A stretch of 36,955 nucleotides of DNA from a virus, in IMG/VR virus record IMGVR_UViG_3300008262_000780, positions 1 through 36,955 of that record, one strand, 5' to 3'. This document shows positions 842 to 35,188 of the stretch, in pieces. The position numbers and the translations under genes are program-made. Under the pieces are notes generated by a model. The model worked only from the letters and a program-made list of their open reading frames with translations. It did no database searches and was not told where the DNA came from. How positions within the stretch are numbered: the first letter of the stretch is position 1; every line of letters begins with the position of its first letter.

Positions 842-1119
842 GCGACCAGATTGAAATAAATCAGGACAGCAAATGGCAGTTCAGTACGCAGATGCTGGTG
901 GCCATTATCGGCGGTATCATGTCTCTTTTGGGGGTTTACTACACACTAAAGCAAGACATTGAAGAAGCCAAGCTACTTCCGAAGCCTCCGGTTTCAGAAG
1001 TAGAATTTAAGTTGAAAGATGAGCTAATCAGAGAAGCAATCCTAACAACTCAAAAGGACGTTACTGATATCAAGGAAAGCATCAAGAAGCTAGAAGACAG
1101 AGTTTACGATCAAAAGTAA
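838..1119 (+). CDS. single-pass membrane protein with coiled coil, holin-like
   Basis: 93 aa. One membrane segment at about residues 18-38 (MLVAIIGGIMSLLGVYYTL) is followed by a charged helix with heptad-like spacing (about 60-92) predicted to form a coiled coil. The start is GTG inside the stop of the previous gene. A short N-terminus, one membrane segment and a charged C-terminal helix are seen in some phage holins and in XhlA-type proteins, but also in many unrelated phage membrane proteins. A lysis role is suggested only by the spanin-like gene 1.5 kb downstream. Confidence 0.6.
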   Translation: MSDQIEINQDSKWQFSTQMLVAIIGGIMSLLGVYYTLKQDIEEAKLLPKPPVSEVEFKLKDELIREAILTTQKDVTDIKESIKKLEDRVYDQK

Positions 1120-1490
1120 TGAAAGTCACAGCTACTATCGCAAGCAAACTCCTCATCGCAGCTGTCGCTGGATGGGGATTTGGCGTTTTTGTTTCCCAAC
1201 CTTTCATAGACAAGGACCACAAAGCTAAAAAATTGAAGGCAGAGAAATCAGTTGCCTACAAATTGATACAGCAGAATGCTGAGTGGAACAAGCAGAACAC
1301 TGTTACTGGGCTTGATAAAATTCCAAACTGCACCTATGTTTATGAAGATGTGACGAACAATCCTAAAGTCCACTGCAAACTTCCCTGTGTAACTTTATAC
1401 AAGGGATCAAAATTAATCCATCGATGGGAAGGTAACATCATGATGAAAAATGATGTTACCGCCCAGAAGATACAAGACAAAATGAAATAA
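1119..1490 (+). CDS. membrane-anchored protein, possible thioredoxin-like half
   Basis: 123 aa. A hydrophobic N-terminal segment (about residues 8-27) is likely a membrane anchor or signal; the rest would be periplasmic. The stretch LPCVTLYKGSKLIHRWEG (88-105) resembles the cis-proline strand region of thioredoxin folds, and Cys 71, 86 and 90 are present, but no CxxC active site is seen. Its ATG overlaps the previous stop (TAATG). The thioredoxin comparison is weak and needs a structure search. Confidence 0.6.
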   Translation: MKVTATIASKLLIAAVAGWGFGVFVSQPFIDKDHKAKKLKAEKSVAYKLIQQNAEWNKQNTVTGLDKIPNCTYVYEDVTNNPKVHCKLPCVTLYKGSKLIHRWEGNIMMKNDVTAQKIQDKMK

Positions 1491-1711
1491 TGGCTAAACC
1501 AAAATTATCCACTCCTAGAAAATCTCCAATGGAGAGACAATGGGAAATTGAAGATGCAGTTCGTACTCTTCAGAGAGCAGAAACTATCCGTAGCGATAAA
1601 AAGCTAATGGGTGAAGTGAAGAAATCCATGAGCAAGATTCAAAGTATCGTCATGGGTCCTGAGGCAAAAATGGCTAAACCTAAGACCAAGCCTAAACCAA
1701 AAATGAAATAA
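1490..1711 (+). CDS. small basic protein, 73 aa
   Basis: Unrecognised Lys-rich protein. Central residues 14-50 look like a charged helix; the tail is a run of Lys-Pro repeats (MAKPKTKPKPKMK). The start codon overlaps the stop of the gene before (TAATG) and the stop overlaps the start of the gene after in the same way, so translation of the three is probably coupled. Confidence 0.6.
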   Translation: MAKPKLSTPRKSPMERQWEIEDAVRTLQRAETIRSDKKLMGEVKKSMSKIQSIVMGPEAKMAKPKTKPKPKMK

Positions 1712-3708: not shown

Positions 3709-5550
3709 ATGGAAATAGTAAAACTAAAACCCAGCGCCCCCAAGTTCGAATATGACAAGTGGTGGCGCAAGTACGGCCTATCCGAAAACGCAACCACTAA
3801 AGAAAAAAATTTATGGTGGGGGAAGGAACGTGAGCAGTACTGGCTTGAGGGACGTTTTGGTTTAGCTCCTGCTCACTACTTCATGCTTACGCAAGCTACG
3901 ATCAAGACAGCAACAGGTGCAAGAATACGTCCTGTCTGGAGGGACCTTGATGATTTGATCTACGGATCATACCACGAAGCGAAGAATACTTTCTGGGACC
4001 TAATGGTCACCAAGCGTCGTGAAGCAGGTTTGTCATTAACTTTCGGCGGTGTCATTCCAATCTGGATTGCATTTACCAACCCCGGTTCCACTTCACTTCT
4101 AACCTCAGCGGATAAAACTCGTCTTGAAGAAATGTACAAGGACAAACTTCGTGTTGTCTTTGACGGAATTGATTCTTACTATCGTCCGGGGATCATCTCA
4201 ACAAGACAGACTGGTTACCTGCACATGGGTAAACTGGACAAAGCAACTGGTAAGATCAGTGGGTTGGACTCGAAGATAGTAACTCGTGATACAGTTGAAC
4301 AACCTACTTCTCTGGAAGCGTTTCGTGCGATGCATGTATTCCTCGATGAGTTCTTTCTGCATCCTTACGCTGACAAGGTTTATCGTTCAGCTCAGGCTTC
4401 TACCAAAGATGGTTTCATCAAAGTTGCTCCCATTGTCATGGGGGGTAGTGCGGGTGAATCATCTGTAGAAGGTCAGAAGAAAGGCGCTGAGCTTTGGAAA
4501 AATGCGGAGATCATCAAGATGCTTACTGTTTTTCTACCCGGTTGGATGGGGATTCAGAAAGCACCAGAACTCGATGAGAAAGGTAGAGAGACAGGTAAGA
4601 TATTAAACTTCTGTCCCAATGGACACAGCGATGAAAAAGCTGCTACAGAATGGGTAATGAAGACCAGAGAGAACTTGGACAAACTAGAGGACAAGAAGTA
4701 TCTGGAGTCATTTATAAAGCAGTATCCACTCACTATTCAAGAAGTGTTTACTGCAAACGCCAAAGGTGCATTACCTCAGGACGTAATGTCAAAGTTGGTA
4801 GAGAGAGAAAGGATTTTGCTTGGTAACCCACCACCAATCGAACGGTGTGACTTGATCAAGAATGTAGATGGAAAAATCGAAGTCAAACCAAACCCGAAAG
4901 GTAAGATTTTGATGCTTGAACGCTACAACCCAGAGCACAACTATATTGCCGGCATGGACCCAATCCCATTTGTTTCCAATAAACTGAATGATGGTTCGGA
5001 CAATTGCACTGCGATCAAAGATGCAGATACAAATAGGTACGTAGCGATCTACAAGGAACGTGCGTTGGACCCAGATGTAATCATGCACAACACAATTCTC
5101 ATGCAGGATTATTTCGGAAAGGCAAAGGTGAATATTGAGGTGAACCGAGGGGGTGTTATTCTAGACCAGTACAGACAGTTGAACCGTCAAGACTTACTGG
5201 CTTATCGTCCTACCCTGCTGGGTAAAGCATTCAATGCCGGAGATAGAACCTATGGTTGGTACAAAGGCGATGAAACTGGACAGCGAGGCAATGCTTTGAT
5301 CATCGACTACTTGAGAAAATTCTGGATGGAGATTTACTTTCAGGAAATTATCGACGAAGCGAAGAACTATCTCGTAGACAACACGGATATTATTGATGCC
5401 ATGGTATCGTGTGAAATTCAGCACAAGCAGATTCTGGAGAAAAATAAAAGGGATCGTGGGCCAGAGTTAGTGGCCAAGAAGATCCCTACTATTCAAATGG
5501 TAAATGGTAAAGCGGTCAAGGTTTGGGTTGAAGTTAAGCTTCAGAAATAA
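3709..5550 (+). CDS. terL: terminase large subunit
   Basis: 613 aa packaging motor. The N-terminal ATPase shows an atypical Walker A at about 101-109 (TKRREAGLS) and Walker B at 208-215 (MHVFLDEF, with Asp 213 and catalytic Glu 214). The C-terminal RNase H-like nuclease has Asp 417 (YIAGMDP), a second acidic strand near Glu 477 (VNIEVNRGG) and Asp 560/563 (DNTDIIDAM). It translocates DNA into the prohead through the portal and cuts at the end of packaging. It follows the putative small subunit by two bases and its stop overlaps, tail to tail, the end of the minus-strand DnaA-like gene by 17 bases. Confidence 0.92.
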   Translation: MEIVKLKPSAPKFEYDKWWRKYGLSENATTKEKNLWWGKEREQYWLEGRFGLAPAHYFMLTQATIKTATGARIRPVWRDLDDLIYGSYHEAKNTFWDLMVTKRREAGLSLTFGGVIPIWIAFTNPGSTSLLTSADKTRLEEMYKDKLRVVFDGIDSYYRPGIISTRQTGYLHMGKLDKATGKISGLDSKIVTRDTVEQPTSLEAFRAMHVFLDEFFLHPYADKVYRSAQASTKDGFIKVAPIVMGGSAGESSVEGQKKGAELWKNAEIIKMLTVFLPGWMGIQKAPELDEKGRETGKILNFCPNGHSDEKAATEWVMKTRENLDKLEDKKYLESFIKQYPLTIQEVFTANAKGALPQDVMSKLVERERILLGNPPPIERCDLIKNVDGKIEVKPNPKGKILMLERYNPEHNYIAGMDPIPFVSNKLNDGSDNCTAIKDADTNRYVAIYKERALDPDVIMHNTILMQDYFGKAKVNIEVNRGGVILDQYRQLNRQDLLAYRPTLLGKAFNAGDRTYGWYKGDETGQRGNALIIDYLRKFWMEIYFQEIIDEAKNYLVDNTDIIDAMVSCEIQHKQILEKNKRDRGPELVAKKIPTIQMVNGKAVKVWVEVKLQK

Positions 5551-11064: not shown

Positions 11065-11242
11065 TGGTGTTCTCCTCAGTCACTACTAGTTTTTCAAGAA
11101 GGCGCACAGCCTCAGGTAGGCTCTCGCAGTCTTGGATCTTGTCTTGATTAATGTACAGGCGATAGTACCAAGTACCATTTACAAACGCTTGGACAATACT
11201 GGCGCTGTAAAACTTTGGATTTCTTTTAGAGATGCTGCTCAT
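11045..11242 (-). CDS. hypothetical protein, 65 aa
   Basis: Short soluble protein. The central GTWYYRLYINQDKIQDCESLPEA suggests a beta hairpin plus helix. It overlaps the recombinase gene by 17 bases and the following gene by 20. Family not recognised. Confidence 0.5.
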   Translation of the reverse strand: MSSISKRNPKFYSASIVQAFVNGTWYYRLYINQDKIQDCESLPEAVRLLEKLVVTEENTNDERNN

Positions 11243-11915
11243 AGATATTATTATTTACGATTTTTTCAATTGTTGTGTGCCAGAACTTCTTACCTTTTTT
11301 GGTTTTGTAGCCTGACTCATTGCACATACTGGCAATGGTGGAGTAGGAGAACTTAGGATGCCAAAGAAATATCTTTCGGACAAGAGTCATCTCTTCTTCG
11401 TTCACCACCAGTCTTCCGTCCTTCTTATCAAACCCTAAAGGAGTTGGGCCACAGTAAACCTTCTGCTCTTTCTTGAGATACTTCATTACTGATTGAATCA
11501 GTTCACCACGTTGGTTGCTTTCAAACTCAGCGAAGGCAGCCATCATCTGAAGCATTAGCTTCCCATGGGAAGTGGTGGTGTCGATCTGGAAGTCAAGAGT
11601 ATAAAAGGCTACTCCTTTGGCTTCGAGATAAGCAATCCACTTCAAGGTGTCCTTCACGTTTCTGCCAAAACGAGAAAGGCTATAGACGATGACTACATCG
11701 GTTTGATGTTTGTCGACCATTTTGATCATCTTCATGAAGTCAGGACGGTTTTCAAACTTACGACCAGAGACCCCGGGGTCAGAAAACGAACCTACAATTT
11801 GATAATTGTGAAGCTCGCAGAACTTTTTGATTCTATCATCTTGATTTTCTAATGATGAACCATCTTCAACTTGATTGTCATGAGACACACGAGTGTAATA
11901 CACTGCTCTTTTCAT
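11226..11915 (-). CDS. serine recombinase, short form
   Basis: 229 aa. The resolvase domain has catalytic Ser 11 (YTRVSHDNQ), the SDPGVSGRKFENRPDF loop, and arginines in VYSLSRFGRN. It is followed by a recombinase-type DNA-binding region (GPTPLGFDKKDG, KKFWHTTIEKIVNNNIY). It lacks the zinc ribbon and long coiled coil of large serine integrases (450-550 aa) and is nearer to resolvases and invertases with an added domain. Possible roles are resolution of genome multimers, inversion, or integration; no attachment site is visible. Coupled (ATGA) to the ribbon-helix-helix gene upstream. Confidence 0.85.
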   Translation of the reverse strand: MKRAVYYTRVSHDNQVEDGSSLENQDDRIKKFCELHNYQIVGSFSDPGVSGRKFENRPDFMKMIKMVDKHQTDVVIVYSLSRFGRNVKDTLKWIAYLEAKGVAFYTLDFQIDTTTSHGKLMLQMMAAFAEFESNQRGELIQSVMKYLKKEQKVYCGPTPLGFDKKDGRLVVNEEEMTLVRKIFLWHPKFSYSTIASMCNESGYKTKKGKKFWHTTIEKIVNNNIYEQHL

Positions 11916-14617: not shown

Positions 14618-15139
14618 TTAACGAAATGTTACATATGGTCTAGTTAAATCGTGAAACTCTTTTGATGTAATTTCAATAATTTCATCATTATTTAAATTGC
14701 ATTTATCATCTATGTGAAGGACTAAAACATCGCCGCATGTAAGCACCACAGGCATACAAAACTCACCTATTGGTGTTTTTACACCTAGAATATCATGAGG
14801 CTCTTCAAACCAAGATTTTTGAATACCATTGTCTAAAGCTTCTGCTATTTCACGACCTGCTTTTGTGCGCTTATTTGGAACATACACGCCATCCATGGTT
14901 TTGTGCTTTACCCATAGCTTAGGATCAACCTTTTCAGGCTCATGAAATACAAAACCACTGTACTGTGTTACCCTAATATAATTTTGCTGGCCATGAATGC
15001 CCCAAAATTTGGTGAATGAGAGCTGCACTAAATCTTTTACAAATTGCTTGTTTTCCTCTTTCATTTTCTCTTCTTTCTCCAGAAGTGCTTTTAGCTTTTT
15101 GTAGTACTTGCTGTTTTGGTTTACGATTTTGTAATACAT
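14618..15139 (-). CDS. conserved Bacteroidota phage protein, 173 aa
   Basis: Start taken at ATG 15139 (MYYKIVNQNSKYYKKL); an extended frame from 15208 would translate repeat B and is unlikely. A helical N-terminus (LKALLEKEEKMKEENKQFVKD) is followed by GIHGQQNYIRVTQYSGFVFHEP and KTMDGVYVPNKRTKAGREI, a pattern I recall from uncharacterised Bacteroides and flavobacterial phage proteins. It is embedded at the downstream end of the tRNA array. Role unknown. Confidence 0.65.
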   Translation of the reverse strand: MYYKIVNQNSKYYKKLKALLEKEEKMKEENKQFVKDLVQLSFTKFWGIHGQQNYIRVTQYSGFVFHEPEKVDPKLWVKHKTMDGVYVPNKRTKAGREIAEALDNGIQKSWFEEPHDILGVKTPIGEFCMPVVLTCGDVLVLHIDDKCNLNNDEIIEITSKEFHDLTRPYVTFR

Positions 15140-15147
15140 AATATTTT

Positions 15148-15190
15148 CTACCACCACAACCCCGCACAAACTTAATTGAACGGGGCGGAT
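15148..15190 (-). repeat. tRNA-region structured repeat, copy B
   Basis: CTACC at 15148, CCCCG at 15160-15164 and CGGGG at 15181-15185 with the AATTGAA block between, as in copies C and D. It sits immediately upstream (minus sense) of the start of the 173-aa gene rather than of a tRNA. The outer pairing is weaker. Confidence 0.55.
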
Positions 15191-15229
15191 GGACCATCCA
15201 TGTGCCACGAAGGGTTAGGCAGGATTTTG

Positions 15230-15344
15230 TAGTCAGGACAGGATTCGAACCTATACACACGATTACCGTAGTCGTATTGCTTTTCGCTACTTCAACCTCG
15301 TGCCACTATATTTGAATGTGCGTCTACCATTTCGCCACCTGACT
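15230..15344 (-). tRNA. tRNA-like gene 1, 115 nt, anticodon not assigned
   Basis: Acceptor arms AGTCAGG and CCTGACT pair over seven bases, with discriminator A. The T arm is canonical (ATAGG, loop TTCGAAT, CCTGT). The D arm GCG/CGC with loop AAATGGTAGA resembles leucine tRNAs. The rest (about 65 nt) is too long: an ATTCAAATA segment could hold a CAA anticodon between a weak CAC/GTG stem, and a second hairpin ACGA/TCGT lies in what would be the variable arm. Either a class II tRNA-Leu with a huge variable arm or a tRNA-like RNA. Confidence 0.6.
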
Positions 15345-15408
15345 ATTTATAAGAACGTCTTTCTACCACCGCAACCCCGAACAAACTGAATTGAACGGGG
15401 CGAGGTAG
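15345..15408 (-). repeat. tRNA-region structured repeat, copy C
   Basis: Nearly identical to copy D, including the flank (TTTATAAGAACGTCTTTC) next to the tRNA. Pairings: CTACC (15363-15367)/GGTAG (15404-15408) outside and CCCCG (15375-15379)/CGGGG (15396-15400) inside. On the minus strand it ends just before the 5' end of tRNA-like gene 1 and also contains TTGCGG, 17 bases, TATAAA, so it might act as a promoter, a processing signal, or both. Confidence 0.65.
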
Positions 15409-15459
15409 CCATTTCCCTTGTTGGCTTGGATTCCAACTTCCTACCTAATCGTAGGCGCG

Positions 15460-15546
15460 TAGTCAGGAAAGGACTCGAACCTTTGAAGTACCACCACACA
15501 ACATAACCATGATTGGTATTTATTGTTAATGTTGCGCCACCTGACT
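15460..15546 (-). tRNA. tRNA-like gene 2, 87 nt, anticodon uncertain (CAT possible)
   Basis: The same AGTCAGG/CCTGACT acceptor stem as gene 1, discriminator A, and T arm AAAGG, TTCGAGT, CCTTT. No D stem is apparent after GCG; a strong hairpin (CAACAT with ATGTTG, extended by AAC/GTT) covers the middle. A CAT triplet preceded by T lies inside. Not a normal cloverleaf as read by eye. Confidence 0.5.
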
Positions 15547-15609
15547 ATTTATAAGAACGTCTTTCACCACCGCAACCCCGAACAAACTGAATTGAACGGG
15601 GTGAGGTAG
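15547..15609 (-). repeat. tRNA-region structured repeat, copy D
   Basis: Matches copy C almost base for base over about 60 positions. Inner stem CCCCG (15576-15580)/CGGGG (15597-15601). On the minus strand it directly precedes tRNA-like gene 2 with the same TTCTTATAAAT junction. The TTGCGG to TATAAA spacing is 16 instead of 17. Confidence 0.65.
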
Positions 15610-15669
15610 ACCACTTGCATTTTGTTTAGTTGCAACAACTCAATGCCAATCCTCTTATGGCCGATTTTG

Positions 15670-15741
15670 TGGTCATGACAGGACTCGAACCTGCATATCC
15701 AACATTTGCCGTGTTGGGCGTTCCATTTCCGCCACATGACC
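15670..15741 (-). tRNA. tRNA-Cys(GCA)-like, 72 nt, with G at position 33
   Basis: The most regular member of the array: acceptor GGTCATG/CATGACC with discriminator A, D arm GGCG/CGCC, anticodon stem CAACA/TGTTG, variable GATAT, and T arm GCAGG, TTCGAGT, CCTGT. The seven-base anticodon loop reads CGGCAAA, which places GCA (cysteine) at 34-36 but G instead of the near-universal U at 33. CCA is not encoded. Confidence 0.75.
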
Positions 15742-15953
15742 AAGTAGCACCCTGATTTATCCAACTTACAGGTGCTGTGGCTGTCCCTATTGCTAGGTTA
15801 GGAATAGACTTTTTGACTCTCCTTCTTGAGGGATCTTACCGTCTCAGCAGTCAACTGGGTGATTTACATATCTACCACCAACTTTCCCATACGGACATCA
15901 CTCCGTTTCTCTTCGTATTGGGAATACTATCCGTTGTCATGTTTCGGATCGTG
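15742..15953. other. 212-base spacer with hairpins inside the tRNA array
   Basis: No coding frame is supported. Two strong pairings are seen: AGCACC (15746-15751)/GGTGCT (15771-15776), and CCCATACG (15886-15893)/CGTATTGGG (15914-15922). It could hold a degenerate tRNA or a small RNA; nothing more can be said. Confidence 0.35.
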
Positions 15954-16081
15954 TGGGGAGAGCAGGATTCGAACCTGCATCAAAGCGGATTAACTCGGGA
16001 GTTTATACCGTACTTCTTCCGCCGTATCAAAGATACTTACCGGCCCTTGCCGATGTGTTTATCCATTTACACCATCTCCCC
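15954..16081 (-). tRNA. tRNA-like gene 4, 128 nt, anticodon not assigned
   Basis: Acceptor GGGGAGA/TCTCCCC with discriminator A, D arm GTG/CAC (loop TAAATGGATAAA), T arm GCAGG, TTCGAAT, CCTGC. The middle holds ATCGG/CCGGT with loop CAAGGGC, then GTATC-TTT-GATAC, then GCGGA/TCCGC enclosing AACTC/GAGTT, over 50 nt more than a class I tRNA. If the first hairpin is the anticodon arm, position 33 is A, not U. Confidence 0.55.
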
Positions 16082-16084
16082 AAA

Positions 16085-16147
16085 TACCCTGTAGTTTTTA
16101 ATTTAGTATCCGCAGAAATACAGGGAATAGAATCACCAAATGATTCT
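16085..16147. other. tandem hairpins between tRNA-like genes
   Basis: CCCTGTA (16087-16093) pairs with TACAGGG (16119-16125), and AGAATCA (16129-16135) with TGATTCT (16141-16147) around a five-base loop. Likely processing or spacer structures in the tRNA precursor. Confidence 0.4.
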
Positions 16148-16160
16148 AAAAACTGCGTTG

Positions 16161-16259
16161 TAGTCAGGACAGGATTCGAACCTGTAAGAACTCTTTTTAT
16201 TCTTCACTCTGGTTACTGTATTTCACCAGCCATGGCTTTACCAATTCCGCCACCTGACT
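16161..16259 (-). tRNA. tRNA-like gene 5, 99 nt, anticodon not assigned
   Basis: AGTCAGG/CCTGACT acceptor stem again, discriminator A; D arm GGC/GCC with GG in the loop; T arm ACAGG, TTCGAAT, CCTGT. A central stem CTGGT/ACCAG carries an 11-base loop (GAAATACAGTA) rather than seven, and a variable arm AAGAA/TTCTT follows. It resembles a class II tRNA with an enlarged anticodon loop. Confidence 0.6.
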
Positions 16260-16381
16260 ATGTTGCTTGTCTTTCCAAGCTGTCAAGATATTCTCAGTTT
16301 TTCAACCAAAACGGCTTCTCAATCCGTTCAGCTCTCTTTACGTGGTGGGTGTGCTGAAATTCCCCATACCAACGAGATTTG

Positions 16382-16499
16382 TAGTCAGGACAGGATTCGA
16401 ACCTGTATTTACACTCTACTTGTACTAGCTGTGTCCGATGGATTGGGTTACAATACAATTCCCTCCCCACCTGCTCTTAACCGTTAAAGCTACCTGACC
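16382..16499 (-). tRNA. tRNA-like gene 6, 118 nt, anticodon uncertain (GTA possible)
   Basis: Acceptor GGTCAGG/CCTGACT (first pair G-T), discriminator A; D arm GCT/AGC with loop TTAACGGTTAAG; T arm ACAGG, TTCGAAT, CCTGT. The middle has GG(A)ATTG/CAATCC with loop TATTGTAACC, containing TGTAA as in tyrosine tRNAs, then ACAC/GTGT enclosing CTA/TAG. First in the array in the minus direction. Confidence 0.55.
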
Positions 16500-16541: not shown

Positions 16542-17498
16542 TTATGAAAACGAAACCAATGTTTTAGCAGTCCTCTCGTTGAGCCACTCGACAATGGTGT
16601 CGTAAGCCAAGTTATTTATTTCTGCGCCAGTTCCTGTCATTAGATAGGAATTCTTATTTGCTTTGGCCGGCATAGCCATGTGATTTGTGTAGCGAGTCAC
16701 AGCGTTGAACAAGCCCCAAACCGTATCCCCTTCGAGGTCACGTTCCATGTTGTAGGCTTGAGCAAACTGAGCAAGTTGGTTTCTTCTACGAGTAGAAACT
16801 TCCCCGATGTTTTGGTTTCTGCTGTCCAAGCTAAACATCTTGTTTATCACAGCCTCAACAACACTCTCATGAGGGGCGGTCTCAGACATTCTTCTAAATG
16901 TCTCGAACATTCTCTCATCTTCTTTGATAGTCTCTTGAAACTGGCGAATGGCAACTTCGATCCGTTCTTTAGAATTCTCTGTGTGACGGAACTTTTCGGT
17001 GTCCTTGTATGCTCTGTAGAAAGTATTGGAGCAGATAACTACCTCGTTGGTAGAACCAAAGGAGATAGATGAAGAGCCATCGTGAGAGTTGAGTACGGTA
17101 ACCCAACGTTTAACTCCCGACTTACCAACATATTCATCAGGCAACTCGGCTTGAAGGAAAACCTTCTTGCCATGGTCTAATTGACCGCCACGGTTGGTGT
17201 TGATTCCGATGCCGTCAGTAGCTCGGACAATTGTATCGGCAAGTTCCCAGTTTTGGAACACACGATATCTGTCTTTGACTGTACCGAAGCATGTGGTTGG
17301 AGTTGCAGAGTTTGCGTTTTCGTATCTAAAGATACCGTAGAAATCTGTCTGAAGCCCAGTGTCGTGGTAAAGTCTTTCTTTCTTGACTTCCCAATTAAGC
17401 CCTGTGCGTTCGAGCAGGTTCATTGTCTTCTCGAAATTGTCGAGGTTAAGTTCAGTGTTCATTGTTGAGTTTTTGTTGATTGTGTTTGCGTTTTCCAT
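16542..17498 (-). CDS. DUF932 family phage/plasmid-like protein
   Basis: 318 aa. Typical DUF932 features are present: GLNWEVKKERLYHDTG near the N-terminus, YRVFQNWELADTI, the strand pair KVFLQAELPDEY and RWVTVLNSHDGSSSISFG, VVICSNTF and the C-terminal WGLFNAVTRYTNH. The family is common in phages and plasmids, with roles possibly in DNA recombination or replication but no settled function. ATG 17498 chosen; ATG 17462 is an alternative. An A-rich leader precedes it. Confidence 0.8.
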   Translation of the reverse strand: MENANTINKNSTMNTELNLDNFEKTMNLLERTGLNWEVKKERLYHDTGLQTDFYGIFRYENANSATPTTCFGTVKDRYRVFQNWELADTIVRATDGIGINTNRGGQLDHGKKVFLQAELPDEYVGKSGVKRWVTVLNSHDGSSSISFGSTNEVVICSNTFYRAYKDTEKFRHTENSKERIEVAIRQFQETIKEDERMFETFRRMSETAPHESVVEAVINKMFSLDSRNQNIGEVSTRRRNQLAQFAQAYNMERDLEGDTVWGLFNAVTRYTNHMAMPAKANKNSYLMTGTGAEINNLAYDTIVEWLNERTAKTLVSFS

Positions 17499-24862: not shown

Positions 24863-25723
24863 TTATCTAACCTCCATGCGAAACTTTCTCCAAACTGATT
24901 TTTCAACGTCAGAACGGTGTTCAAAAGCCTCTTCGTGAGAAATCGTAGATTTCTTTTCTTCCTTTGGAGCATTGGTCTTCATGAAGGCTTCAAGAAGATT
25001 GATTTGAGAGCTTTCTTTCTTCTTGACAACCTTCGGTTGAGTTACGACAACCTTGCTTTCAACCTTTGGTTGAGTTACTGCAACCTTAGGTTGTTTCACA
25101 ACCTTTTGAACAACCTTCTCAACAACCTTTGGTTGAGATTGAAGTTCAACAATAGCTTTGCTATTGGCTTGAACCATCTCTGTAAGAGATGCCATTTGAG
25201 TTGCCAAGGCTGTAACTGATTTTGTCAATTCAAGTAAAACTTGATTTTCGGCAGTCGGCTTTTCAACCTTCGGTTGTTTCGCAGGGGGCGCTGGCTTGCT
25301 TGCTTTTGGTTTTTCAGCAACAACCTTCGGTTGACTTGGGGCTTCAGAACCGTAAAAAGGACGTAGGAAAGTCTCTTTCAGAGACTCACGCTCACTTTTT
25401 GGGTCAAAAGATAGCCTAATGTCAATCATAGATTGAAGAGTCGCCATTTGAAGTTCTACGAACTTTTGGTGAATTGGTTGACCATAAAAGTGCCTCCAAC
25501 CTTCGGTTGAAGCTTGGGCTAGAAGCTGTAGATAAACGACTCTGTCGTTAATGCGCTTGGATAGCCACGCTTTCTTGGTCTTTCTTGAGGCAAAAGATTC
25601 CAAATGGCTAAGGATTGCATCCTTAGTAAAAACTTTCCTCGATTCGATGAAACTCTGTTTCATTGCTTCGGTAACTTGATTTTGAATGCTCTGCATTTTG
25701 GTTTGTTTGGTTTGGTTCTTCAT
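24863..25723 (-). CDS. modular protein with QPKV repeats, 286 aa
   Basis: A helical N-terminus (1-115), a Pro/Lys-rich linker with repeated QPKV/PKVV motifs (about 130-240) around a coiled-coil-like segment (LELTKSVTALATQMASLTEMVQ), and a charged C-terminus. Several repeats are encoded by the CAACCTTNGGTTG palindrome. It is the first gene left of the origin region, transcribed away from it, a place where early or regulatory genes are often found. No domain recognised. Confidence 0.6.
   Translation of the reverse strand: MKNQTKQTKMQSIQNQVTEAMKQSFIESRKVFTKDAILSHLESFASRKTKKAWLSKRINDRVVYLQLLAQASTEGWRHFYGQPIHQKFVELQMATLQSMIDIRLSFDPKSERESLKETFLRPFYGSEAPSQPKVVAEKPKASKPAPPAKQPKVEKPTAENQVLLELTKSVTALATQMASLTEMVQANSKAIVELQSQPKVVEKVVQKVVKQPKVAVTQPKVESKVVVTQPKVVKKKESSQINLLEAFMKTNAPKEEKKSTISHEEAFEHRSDVEKSVWRKFRMEVR
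25027..25509. repeat. cluster of CAACCTTNGGTTG palindromes
   Basis: Thirteen-base palindromes at 25027, 25060, 25081, 25123, 25264, 25321 and 25497; further copies at 24102 and (with CTA in the centre) 24328. Most are read as Q-P-K-V, but the 25497 copy is read as S-T-E-G-W, a different frame. This suggests that the DNA or RNA sequence itself matters. Confidence 0.7.
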
Positions 25724-34207: not shown

Positions 34208-35188
34208 GTGAGCACTACTTTGGTTATTGCTAACCACTTTTTGGTAGGTACTATCTGTAAGTCGTTGTTTGACTCAAGTGCAAACCGTTATAGCAACGGT
34301 AAAACTCCGTTGAACTTCGTTCCACAGACTGATTTCACCTACACTGCTATCACTCGTGAAAGCTCAAGCCAAGCACGTCGTGATCGCACCTCTTCTTTCG
34401 TGAAGTGGCAAGGTGATTTCTGGTATCGTTCTTATGACGATTTGACTCTCCGTAAGTTCTCTAAGAGCTTGGAATTCAAATATGCGTTCTCTGAACGTGC
34501 GATCGTTGCCGGTCCTCAAGGTGAGTCTTACACCACCGCTGGTTTACGCTGGTCTATCATCAACAATGGCGGTACTTACCTTCCATTGACTGCTGAAATC
34601 ACCCAGACTCAGTTTAACGACTTCTTGGAAACATTGGTTCGCAAGAGCGCTGAAAATGGCCGTAACCTCATCGCATTGATGGGTACTGCTATGATGGCTC
34701 GTCTGCAAACCTTGTTGTCTGCTTACATCCAGTATGCTGGTACTACCAACACCTTGGGTGGAGTTTCCGTAGAAGGTTTGAACATTATGACTTACAGCTA
34801 TGCTGGTATTAAGATCGATTTTGTTCGCTGGGCCTTGTTGGATGACGATGCATTCAAAGGTGATTTGTCTGGTGTTACTGGTAAGCCTCGTATGTCTCAC
34901 AGCATGTATGTATTGGATATGACTCCAATCCCTGCTGCTGATGGTAGCGGTACAATTTCTCCATTGCAGAAGTATCACTTCAACAATGATGAGATGTTGG
35001 CTGCTTACGTACCGGGTATGATCGGTTTGCAAGATTCTAATCCTTCTACCATCAAGCAAGCAATTGCTAATGGTTTGAGCGGTTCATTGTCTTCTAGCGA
35101 TGTTGACGGTGTGGACTTCCACATTCTTTCTGATTGCGGTCTGTATGTTGCTGCTGAGCGCTGCGGATTGGTTGAATTAATCGCTTAA
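34208..35188 (+). CDS. major capsid protein, main frame
   Basis: 326 codons from GTG 34208; the open frame extends upstream to about 34150, where it meets the N-terminal frame. Joined length is about 400 aa, normal for an HK97-fold or related capsid protein. Strong bias to GGT, GCT, CGT and TTG codons indicates high expression. Mixed alpha/beta with a mid-chain TLGGVSVEGLNIMTYSYAGIKIDFV and a C-terminal SDCGLYVAAERCGLVELIA. Identity inferred from position after portal and scaffold and from composition. Confidence 0.7.
   Translation: MSTTLVIANHFLVGTICKSLFDSSANRYSNGKTPLNFVPQTDFTYTAITRESSSQARRDRTSSFVKWQGDFWYRSYDDLTLRKFSKSLEFKYAFSERAIVAGPQGESYTTAGLRWSIINNGGTYLPLTAEITQTQFNDFLETLVRKSAENGRNLIALMGTAMMARLQTLLSAYIQYAGTTNTLGGVSVEGLNIMTYSYAGIKIDFVRWALLDDDAFKGDLSGVTGKPRMSHSMYVLDMTPIPAADGSGTISPLQKYHFNNDEMLAAYVPGMIGLQDSNPSTIKQAIANGLSGSLSSSDVDGVDFHILSDCGLYVAAERCGLVELIA

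Follow-up and report, generated by a model that had tools for sequence, protein, structure and literature searches.

A class of phage tRNA-like RNA genes with hypervariable interiors in place of the decoding arm

Six tRNA-like genes and the class to which they belong

The stretch of viral DNA analyzed here (the window; IMG/VR record IMGVR_UViG_3300008262_000780, positions 1 to 36,955, 36,955 nt) carries on its minus strand six tRNA-like genes, t1 to t6, of 115, 87, 72, 128, 99, and 118 nt. An earlier note, made from the letters alone, had given the stretch in which they lie, their lengths, the shared acceptor stem, and the T arms, and all of these proved exact to the base. Four of the genes share one acceptor stem, as had been noted: t1 (15230–15344), t2 (15460–15546), and t5 (16161–16259) have AGTCAGG/CCTGACT, and t6 (16382–16499) has it as GGTCAGG/CCTGACT with one G–U pair. 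The acceptor of t3 (15670–15741) is GGTCATG/CATGACC, and t4 (15954–16081) has its own, GGGGAGA/TCTCCCC. The T loops of all six read TTCGARY. The contrary outcome named in the earlier note, six ordinary cloverleafs each with a confident anticodon, did not appear: ARAGORN with standard settings called t3 alone, as tRNA-Cys(GCA)-like. Against the Rfam tRNA model RF00005 (gathering score 29 bits), t3 scored 51.6 bits, while t1 (37.6 bits), t5 (35.0 bits), and t6 (37.7 bits) were accepted by skipping a 36–61-nt interior between the D and T arms. The scores of t2 (27 bits, likewise with a long insert between these arms) and t4 (17.3 bits, scored in the identical contig IMGVR_UViG_3300008108_000323) fell below the gathering score. 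Searching the cluster for other Rfam families returned just a sub-threshold plastid UTR match on the opposite strand, overlapping the T-arm of t4, which we judged to be a chance tRNA-like similarity.

A 5-bp anticodon stem with a 7-nt loop is found in none of t1, t2, t4, t5, and t6. The t1 RNA is tRNA-Leu-like, with a Leu-type D-arm (TGGCGAAATGGTAGACGC), A15–U48, A73, and a 61-nt structured interior without an anticodon arm; t5 resembles it, with D-arm TGGCGGAATTGGTAAAGCC, A15–U48, A73, and an interior of two hairpins with 11-nt and 7-nt loops. In t6 (D-arm TAGCTTTAACGGTTAAGAGC, U48, A73) the interior consists of a 5-bp stem with a 25-nt loop and another stem, and in t4 three hairpins separate the D arm from the T arm, and no hairpin among them has an anticodon loop of 7 nt. 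An atypical member is t2, with its D-stem lengthened to a 9-bp hairpin and without G18G19. Compared with shuffled sequences, folding was most favorable for t4 (z –4.10) and t5 (z –2.6), with the other cluster genes at z –1.5 to –1.9. Among 2.9 million viral contigs, the interior of t1 matched no second phage, that of t4 had no match elsewhere, and that of t6 occurred only in the present phage. Nor did the six interiors show antisense matches to the phage's own 66.8-kb genome, the longest complement being 10–12 nt, equal to shuffles. The earlier note had singled out t3 as the only gene of normal length; the length holds (72 nt, the sole ARAGORN call), but the gene, though an intact cloverleaf, is itself irregular, since its anticodon loop CGGCAAA has G33 in place of the near-universal U33.

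To place the cluster, we searched the same 2.9 million IMG/VR viral contigs for its 3′ end pattern (T-arm plus CCTGACTA) and found at least 120 stretches, many contigs having two to six copies. The same pattern occurred in 13 stretches of 84,980 bacterial and archaeal genomes, mostly on contigs of metagenome-assembled genomes of Bacteroidota (Sediminibacterium, Flavobacterium, Chitinophagaceae, Saprospiraceae); one of the 13, in Hymenobacter, lacks an AGTCAGG partner and resembles an ordinary tRNA. A terminase encoded on class-bearing contigs is closest to those of Flavobacterium psychrophilum phages (47% identity), and we conclude that the carriers are viruses of Bacteroidota, mostly of water-dwelling hosts. 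The collected set comprises 259 distinct genes of 67–191 nt (median 103) in 212 interior clusters, 181 of them singletons. In alignment, a constant 5′ part, AGTCAGG-T-GGCGGAAT(T)GGTAGACGC, and a constant 3′ part, T-ACAGG-TTCGAAT-CCTGT-CCTGACT-A, enclose interiors that differ in sequence and length in almost every gene. These ends provide a 7-bp acceptor stem, U8, a D-arm, and a 5-bp T-arm with a TTCRA loop. There are thus at least 200 differently filled versions of one RNA chassis, on well over a hundred phage contigs. The non-cloverleaf interiors reported for the window hold across this class of several hundred genes, as does the remark that a common acceptor stem is not expected among normal tRNAs that differ in specificity.

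Because the first pattern fixes the acceptor, we rescanned these loci, accepting every T-arm whatever its 7-bp acceptor. The 182 genes with CCTGACT had a median length of 104.5 nt, compared with 74 nt for 160 genes with other acceptors, mostly textbook tRNAs. The phage contig L104 (1032–5349) holds 23 ordinary tRNAs that serve almost every amino acid, together with a tmRNA (tag GNTSTFTYEDALAFVGADFAVAA) and a single class gene of 139 nt. A scan of viral contigs by the D-arm only returned 105 genes, of which 74 have AGTCAGG-type acceptors and five are ordinary tRNA-Leu(TAA). About 26 have other, fully complementary acceptors (for example, AGTCCAG/CTGGACT and GACAAGG/CCTTGTC) and the same kind of hypervariable interior. 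Therefore, the AGTCAGG acceptor is the commonest form and not a condition of membership, and the stem changes by compensation. We found no common neighbor protein near class genes, only ordinary phage genes such as terminases. Searches with the class halves against INPHARED and plasmids matched only the D-arms or T-arms of ordinary tRNA-Leu.

Loss of the decoding arm and selection on the interiors

The class lacks a decoding arm. We scored a canonical anticodon arm by a stem of 5 bp, a loop of 7 nt, Y32, U33, and R37. Such an arm was found in 8 of 265 of these special genes, where dinucleotide shuffles gave 2.2; among the other genes the figure was 214 of 338. At least four of the eight are artifacts in which a second T-arm was misread; a rare exception is L085, an AGTCAGG gene with a perfect Lys(TTT) arm. 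A helix at the position of the anticodon stem, closing the interior, occurred in 24 of 212 families (15.3 ± 4.1 in shuffles), compared with 164 of 274 normal genes (26.7 in shuffles). This near-chance frequency excludes anticodon-loop introns as a general explanation. G33 was seen in five normal-length tRNA-like genes, namely t3 and those in L039, L194, L249, and L267 (3953–4025); their loops are CGGCAAA, CGCTTAA, TGGCAAG, CGTTGAG, and CGCGGAG, and two of the genes are Cys(GCA). Six contigs (L113, L232, and L257, with 93-nt genes, and L072, L081, and L157) have class genes that contain an additional T-arm-like hairpin, the L113-type genes apparently without a D-arm.

The interiors are folded RNA modules under selection that are conserved between phages. 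In 17 clusters with divergent members, 196 consensus pairs could be assigned within the interiors; 23 of these had changed on both sides, and only 6 of 515 cells were broken. Column-shuffled alignments gave 5.7 ± 2.2 such double-compensatory pairs, with a maximum of 13 in 40 shuffles. The summed folding energy of the 17 clusters was –146, compared with –74 ± 8 in column shuffles. For example, L044, L086, and L262 share GTTGAA-GCTGGGTAA-TTCAAC, and L090 has GAGCAA-GCTGGGTAA-TTGCTC, so that the stem is recoded while the loop stays the same; in L182, L229, and L230, a 7-bp stem is altered all along its length, and the loop inside it is conserved. Folded as single sequences, all interiors together were just mildly better than shuffles (mean z –0.46), and because single-sequence energy is weak evidence, the claim of structure rests on covariation. 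Across the 212 interiors no shared motif was found apart from the displaced D-loop motif GGTAGACGC.

Class genes are exchanged singly, each as a unit, between unrelated phages. Identity over the gene is 89–99% in most clusters, and the 400 nt on either side cannot be aligned; genes 95–99% identical between phages have such unalignable flanks. The t5 gene is identical to its counterpart in L078 at 98 of 99 nt, and the homologous stretch (16160–16286) comprises the gene and a 27-nt leader (16260–16286, minus strand) that moved with t5 into the L078 phage; homology stops one base past A73. The t2 gene is identical at 87 of 87 nt in contigs L268–L271, together with its leader and repeat units, in a phage with only remote protein similarity to that of the window. 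Because t5 and t2 recur in unrelated phages, the cluster is not an assembly artifact. We infer that the near-constant gene ends supply the homology for such exchange.

A leucine-type chassis and its possible role

The retained core corresponds to the identity set of leucyl-tRNA synthetase (LeuRS). The 5′ half of the class matches annotated tRNA-Leu genes of Caulobacter phage CcrBL9, cyanophage S-RIM4, and Arthrobacter phage Atuin. A15–U48 is present in 127 of 154 genes chosen by the 3′ end alone (GG in 91%), and A73 in 75 of 89 genes chosen by the D-arm alone. In normal phage tRNAs the combined A15/U48/A73/GG set occurs in 37 of 37 Leu, 13 of 17 Gln, and 12 of 24 Arg genes. In L059, L105, L120, and L129, the insert lies inside the D loop, and GGTAGACGC is intact after it. 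Within the window, A73, A15–U48, and G18G19 are found together in t1, t3, t4, and t5, with a one-base shift in t6, and not in t2. LeuRS needs A73, the trans-Levitt pair A15–U48, G18G19, and A20a and needs neither the anticodon nor the variable arm, and tRNA-Leu without these two arms is still leucylated (reviewed in PMC9976931). The class therefore keeps the parts that the enzyme requires and drops those that it does not, and these features predict that class RNAs are charged with leucine.

We consider the chances about even that these RNAs are mobile, non-decoding, probably leucylated tRNA-Leu-like chassis with exchangeable RNA modules, which would most likely serve counter-defense or host takeover. 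In this model, and with the same even weight, the chassis derives from tRNA-Leu and keeps the acceptor, U8, A14, A15, G18G19, U48, T-arm, and A73, and the module replaces the anticodon and variable arms (in some class genes, part of the D loop as well). From known tRNA biology, the host would mature the transcripts with RNase P and its tRNA 3′-end processing and would add CCA, which is not gene-encoded in the class; the trailer almost always begins with a single C. By the same reasoning, host LeuRS would charge the RNA with leucine, and the mature RNA, probably bound by EF-Tu, would be stable and abundant during infection. Being unable to decode, its job would be to present the module. With less certainty, we suggest that the modules serve in anti-defense or host takeover, as regulators or as decoys that bind proteins, with a separate host factor as the target of each. 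A different host target for each module would explain both the hypervariability and the gene-by-gene exchange. The hypervariability, the conservation within orthologous sets, the mobility, and the lack of a fixed protein partner fit an effector repertoire directed against variable host factors, although this remains speculative. Of the four readings offered by the earlier note, tRNA decoys and tRNA-like regulators together are the most likely.

Several observations weigh against this model. No shared interior motif, common neighbor protein, or antisense match within the phage's own genome reveals a target, and the proposed counter-defense role draws on an analogy to other hypervariable, mobile phage genes. 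A15–U48 and A73 also occur in tRNA-Gln and some tRNA-Arg, so that the case for leucine identity is strong and not exclusive. In addition, G73, an anti-determinant for LeuRS, is found in 12 of the 89 D-arm-selected genes, t2 lacks G18G19 and U48, and t4 and t6 lack a Leu-type D loop; thus, charging may not be universal.

The main rival, which we regard as fairly unlikely, holds that what matters is the chassis, as a decoy for anticodon-independent tRNases, and that the interior merely abolishes decoding or blocks cleavage. The kept parts are exactly the acceptor, T-arm, elbow, and A73, with the anticodon arm lost, and the class phages infect Bacteroidota; Cas12a3, known from a Bacteroidetes bacterium, grips the tail, acceptor, and T-arm, and viral resistance to it was described by its discoverers as unknown. 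However, a function of the chassis only predicts drifting interiors, whereas the loops of orthologous modules are conserved from phage to phage and their stems covary. A single invariant decoy would, moreover, serve as well as 200 modules. The same covariation contradicts decaying pseudo-tRNAs or recombination debris of tRNA arrays, an explanation to which we give little credence; class genes do sit among normal phage tRNAs, and some interiors contain extra T-arm-like hairpins (L072, L081, L113), but decay would strike the arms too, and pairing in the acceptor, D, and T arms is perfect, with substitutions that compensate each other. Recombination or integration sites acting as DNA and merely resembling tRNAs are slightly less improbable and still very unlikely. 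Constant ends around a variable middle, the precise 3′ boundary of transfer, and a serine recombinase gene at 11226–11915 would suit such sites, yet the RNA tertiary pair 15–48, U8, and A14 are kept, acceptor changes are compensatory, and no recombinase or other protein is regularly adjacent. The shared ends probably help homologous exchange, which is compatible with an RNA function.

Two further readings came from the earlier note. Intron-containing precursors that yield normal tRNAs after removal of the insert are the least probable of the explanations weighed here. ARAGORN with introns allowed, a check that the note had proposed, can force a cloverleaf, but the predicted positions and lengths disagree with one another ("Ser gga" with 29 nt between 32/33, "Leu taa" with 40 nt at 34/35, and "Leu cag" with 4 nt at 35/36). 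The closing helix is not above chance, inserts occur in the D loop too, they are too short for group I or II introns, the spliced products would all carry one acceptor stem, and the inserts are conserved and covarying in orthologues. The second reading, functional tRNAs whose altered anticodon arms let them evade anticodon nucleases (a proposal made for tRNAs of mycobacteriophages), is also highly improbable as a general account, because the 5-bp/7-nt arm is found in almost none of the 212 families. For the five long genes of the window the idea finds no support, as they have no anticodon arm that could be spared; t3 with its G33 could be such a tRNA, and a few other normal-length genes (L039, L194, L249, and tRNA-Pro of Tenacibaculum phage pT24) likewise keep the arm with G33.

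Comparison with known RNAs and genomic setting

No known kind of RNA unites a charged-tRNA core, lost decoding, and an exchangeable effector module. Bacterial tRNA-Leu shares the D-arm TGGCGGAATTGGTAGACGC, A15–U48, G18G19, and A73, but the class has no anticodon arm or class II variable arm, a near-constant acceptor, and an interior of up to about 145 nt. Nearest in architecture is tmRNA (RF00023), with a tRNA-like domain in which an RNA module takes over the site of the anticodon arm; it is charged by a synthetase blind to the anticodon, and the class would resemble it in its predicted charging. The class differs in its much smaller size, its Leu-like and not Ala-like features, its hundreds of alternative modules, and a module that is not an mRNA-like tag frame or pseudoknot set. 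We rejected an assignment to tmRNA, as neither Rfam nor ARAGORN gave a tmRNA match for the cluster and pair 3–70 is T–A, not the Ala-type G3–U70. Allo-tRNAs have an 8/4 or 9/3 acceptor/T-stem composition and a long variable arm; the class is 7/5 throughout and was not assigned to them. Phage tRNAs with anticodon-loop changes evade host tRNases (PMC10264068, PMC11555353); like the class, they are phage-encoded, lie in tRNA arrays, and plausibly serve counter-defense, but they keep the cloverleaf and decode, whereas the class has no anticodon arm. The Bacillus cereus pseudo-tRNA "tRNAOther" (PMC3399842) is tRNA-like and unused in translation, as proposed for the class, and differs as a single chromosomal gene beside a genomic island with no class of hypervariable modules described. 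In the cultured Bacteroidota phage pT24 (L267; LC168164.1), two nearly identical genes annotated "tRNA-Undet" (3790–3868 and 4157–4235) carry, where the anticodon arm would be, a longer hairpin ending in a 3-nt loop. Their acceptor (GGTTGTA) and A14–G15 D-arm with C48 differ from the class, hence they are not Leu-type; being in culture, pT24 would allow tRNA-like RNAs that lack an anticodon to be investigated. Apart from this apparently parallel case, the class was not found in cultured phage genomes, and Rfam 15 holds nothing beyond partial tRNA matches to it. We found no description of the class among 5.4 million open-access papers, a search that did not cover subscription papers and preprints and therefore does not prove priority.

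The reason for phage-borne tRNAs has long been asked, and the usual explanations are codon supply or rescue from anticodon nucleases. Having lost the decoding arm, the class is capable of neither, yet the parts for charging and processing are kept. The model makes the definite prediction that these RNAs are leucylated and never enter the ribosomal A site. More tentatively, the class may represent a general RNA delivery chassis of Bacteroidota phages, in which leucylated, EF-Tu-protected, non-decoding tRNA-Leu derivatives present hundreds of exchangeable effectors, made of folded RNA, against host factors, possibly including the first natural counter to immunity that cuts tRNA tails; it would be a kind of RNA counterpart to mobile anti-defense protein genes. 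The class also offers a natural scaffold for stable structured RNAs and a stock of RNA effector candidates numbering in the hundreds; identifying their targets in the host should bring to light defense systems of a poorly studied phylum. Annotation tools overlook most class genes or assign them false isotypes.

The window belongs to a phage genome no shorter than 66.8 kb, represented by the near-identical contig IMGVR_UViG_3300008108_000323, in which the cluster is 100% identical and which may be the same virus assembled a second time. The phage encodes a T7-type DNA polymerase, primase-helicase, the serine recombinase mentioned above, RecE-like exonuclease, and portal. Window proteins at 3709–5550 (613 aa), 14618–15208 (196 aa), 24863–25723 (286 aa), and 34208–35188 (326 aa) have no PHROG match. 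Upstream of the cluster lie a phrog_1221 gene (16542–17498) and a terminator-like hairpin, followed by t6 to t1 in order. A relative, G002 (proteins 72–88% identical), has protein genes and no tRNA genes at the syntenic site, and no T-arm was found across its 67.7 kb; the cluster is therefore an accessory island. INPHARED contained no DNA relatives of it.

Other features were seen on the phage contigs. Directly after the discriminator, almost every class gene and the majority of the normal phage tRNAs listed (L032–L164) have C but not CCA (CAA, CTA, CAC), which may be a processing signal or a remnant. Another conserved tRNA-like RNA, 156–176 nt long, occurs in L045 (641–658, minus), L078 (5356–5373, minus), L147 (920–937), and L098, with acceptors of its own (e.g. 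TGTCAGG/CCTGACA-G73), the core "gggcgctga ... ggttgaccacaaagccgg", and no Rfam match. L045, a phage contig also bearing a class gene, has an Rfam tmRNA match at 1088–1533 (minus; 59 bits).

Between t3 and the gene at 14618, the window contains three copies of a 44-nt CCCCG..CGGGG hairpin repeat (D2), partly extended by a leader common to t1 and t2. All lie on the minus strand. The copy upstream of t2 (15566–15609; repeat families D2, D4) runs on into the conserved leader GTTGCGGTGGTGAAAGACGTTCTTATAAAT that precedes t2 and is kept with it in L268. A second copy (15365–15408) lies upstream of t1 and downstream of t2, and a diverged copy (15150–15193) between t1 and the next protein gene. One pair of D2 copies flanks t2 in L268 too.

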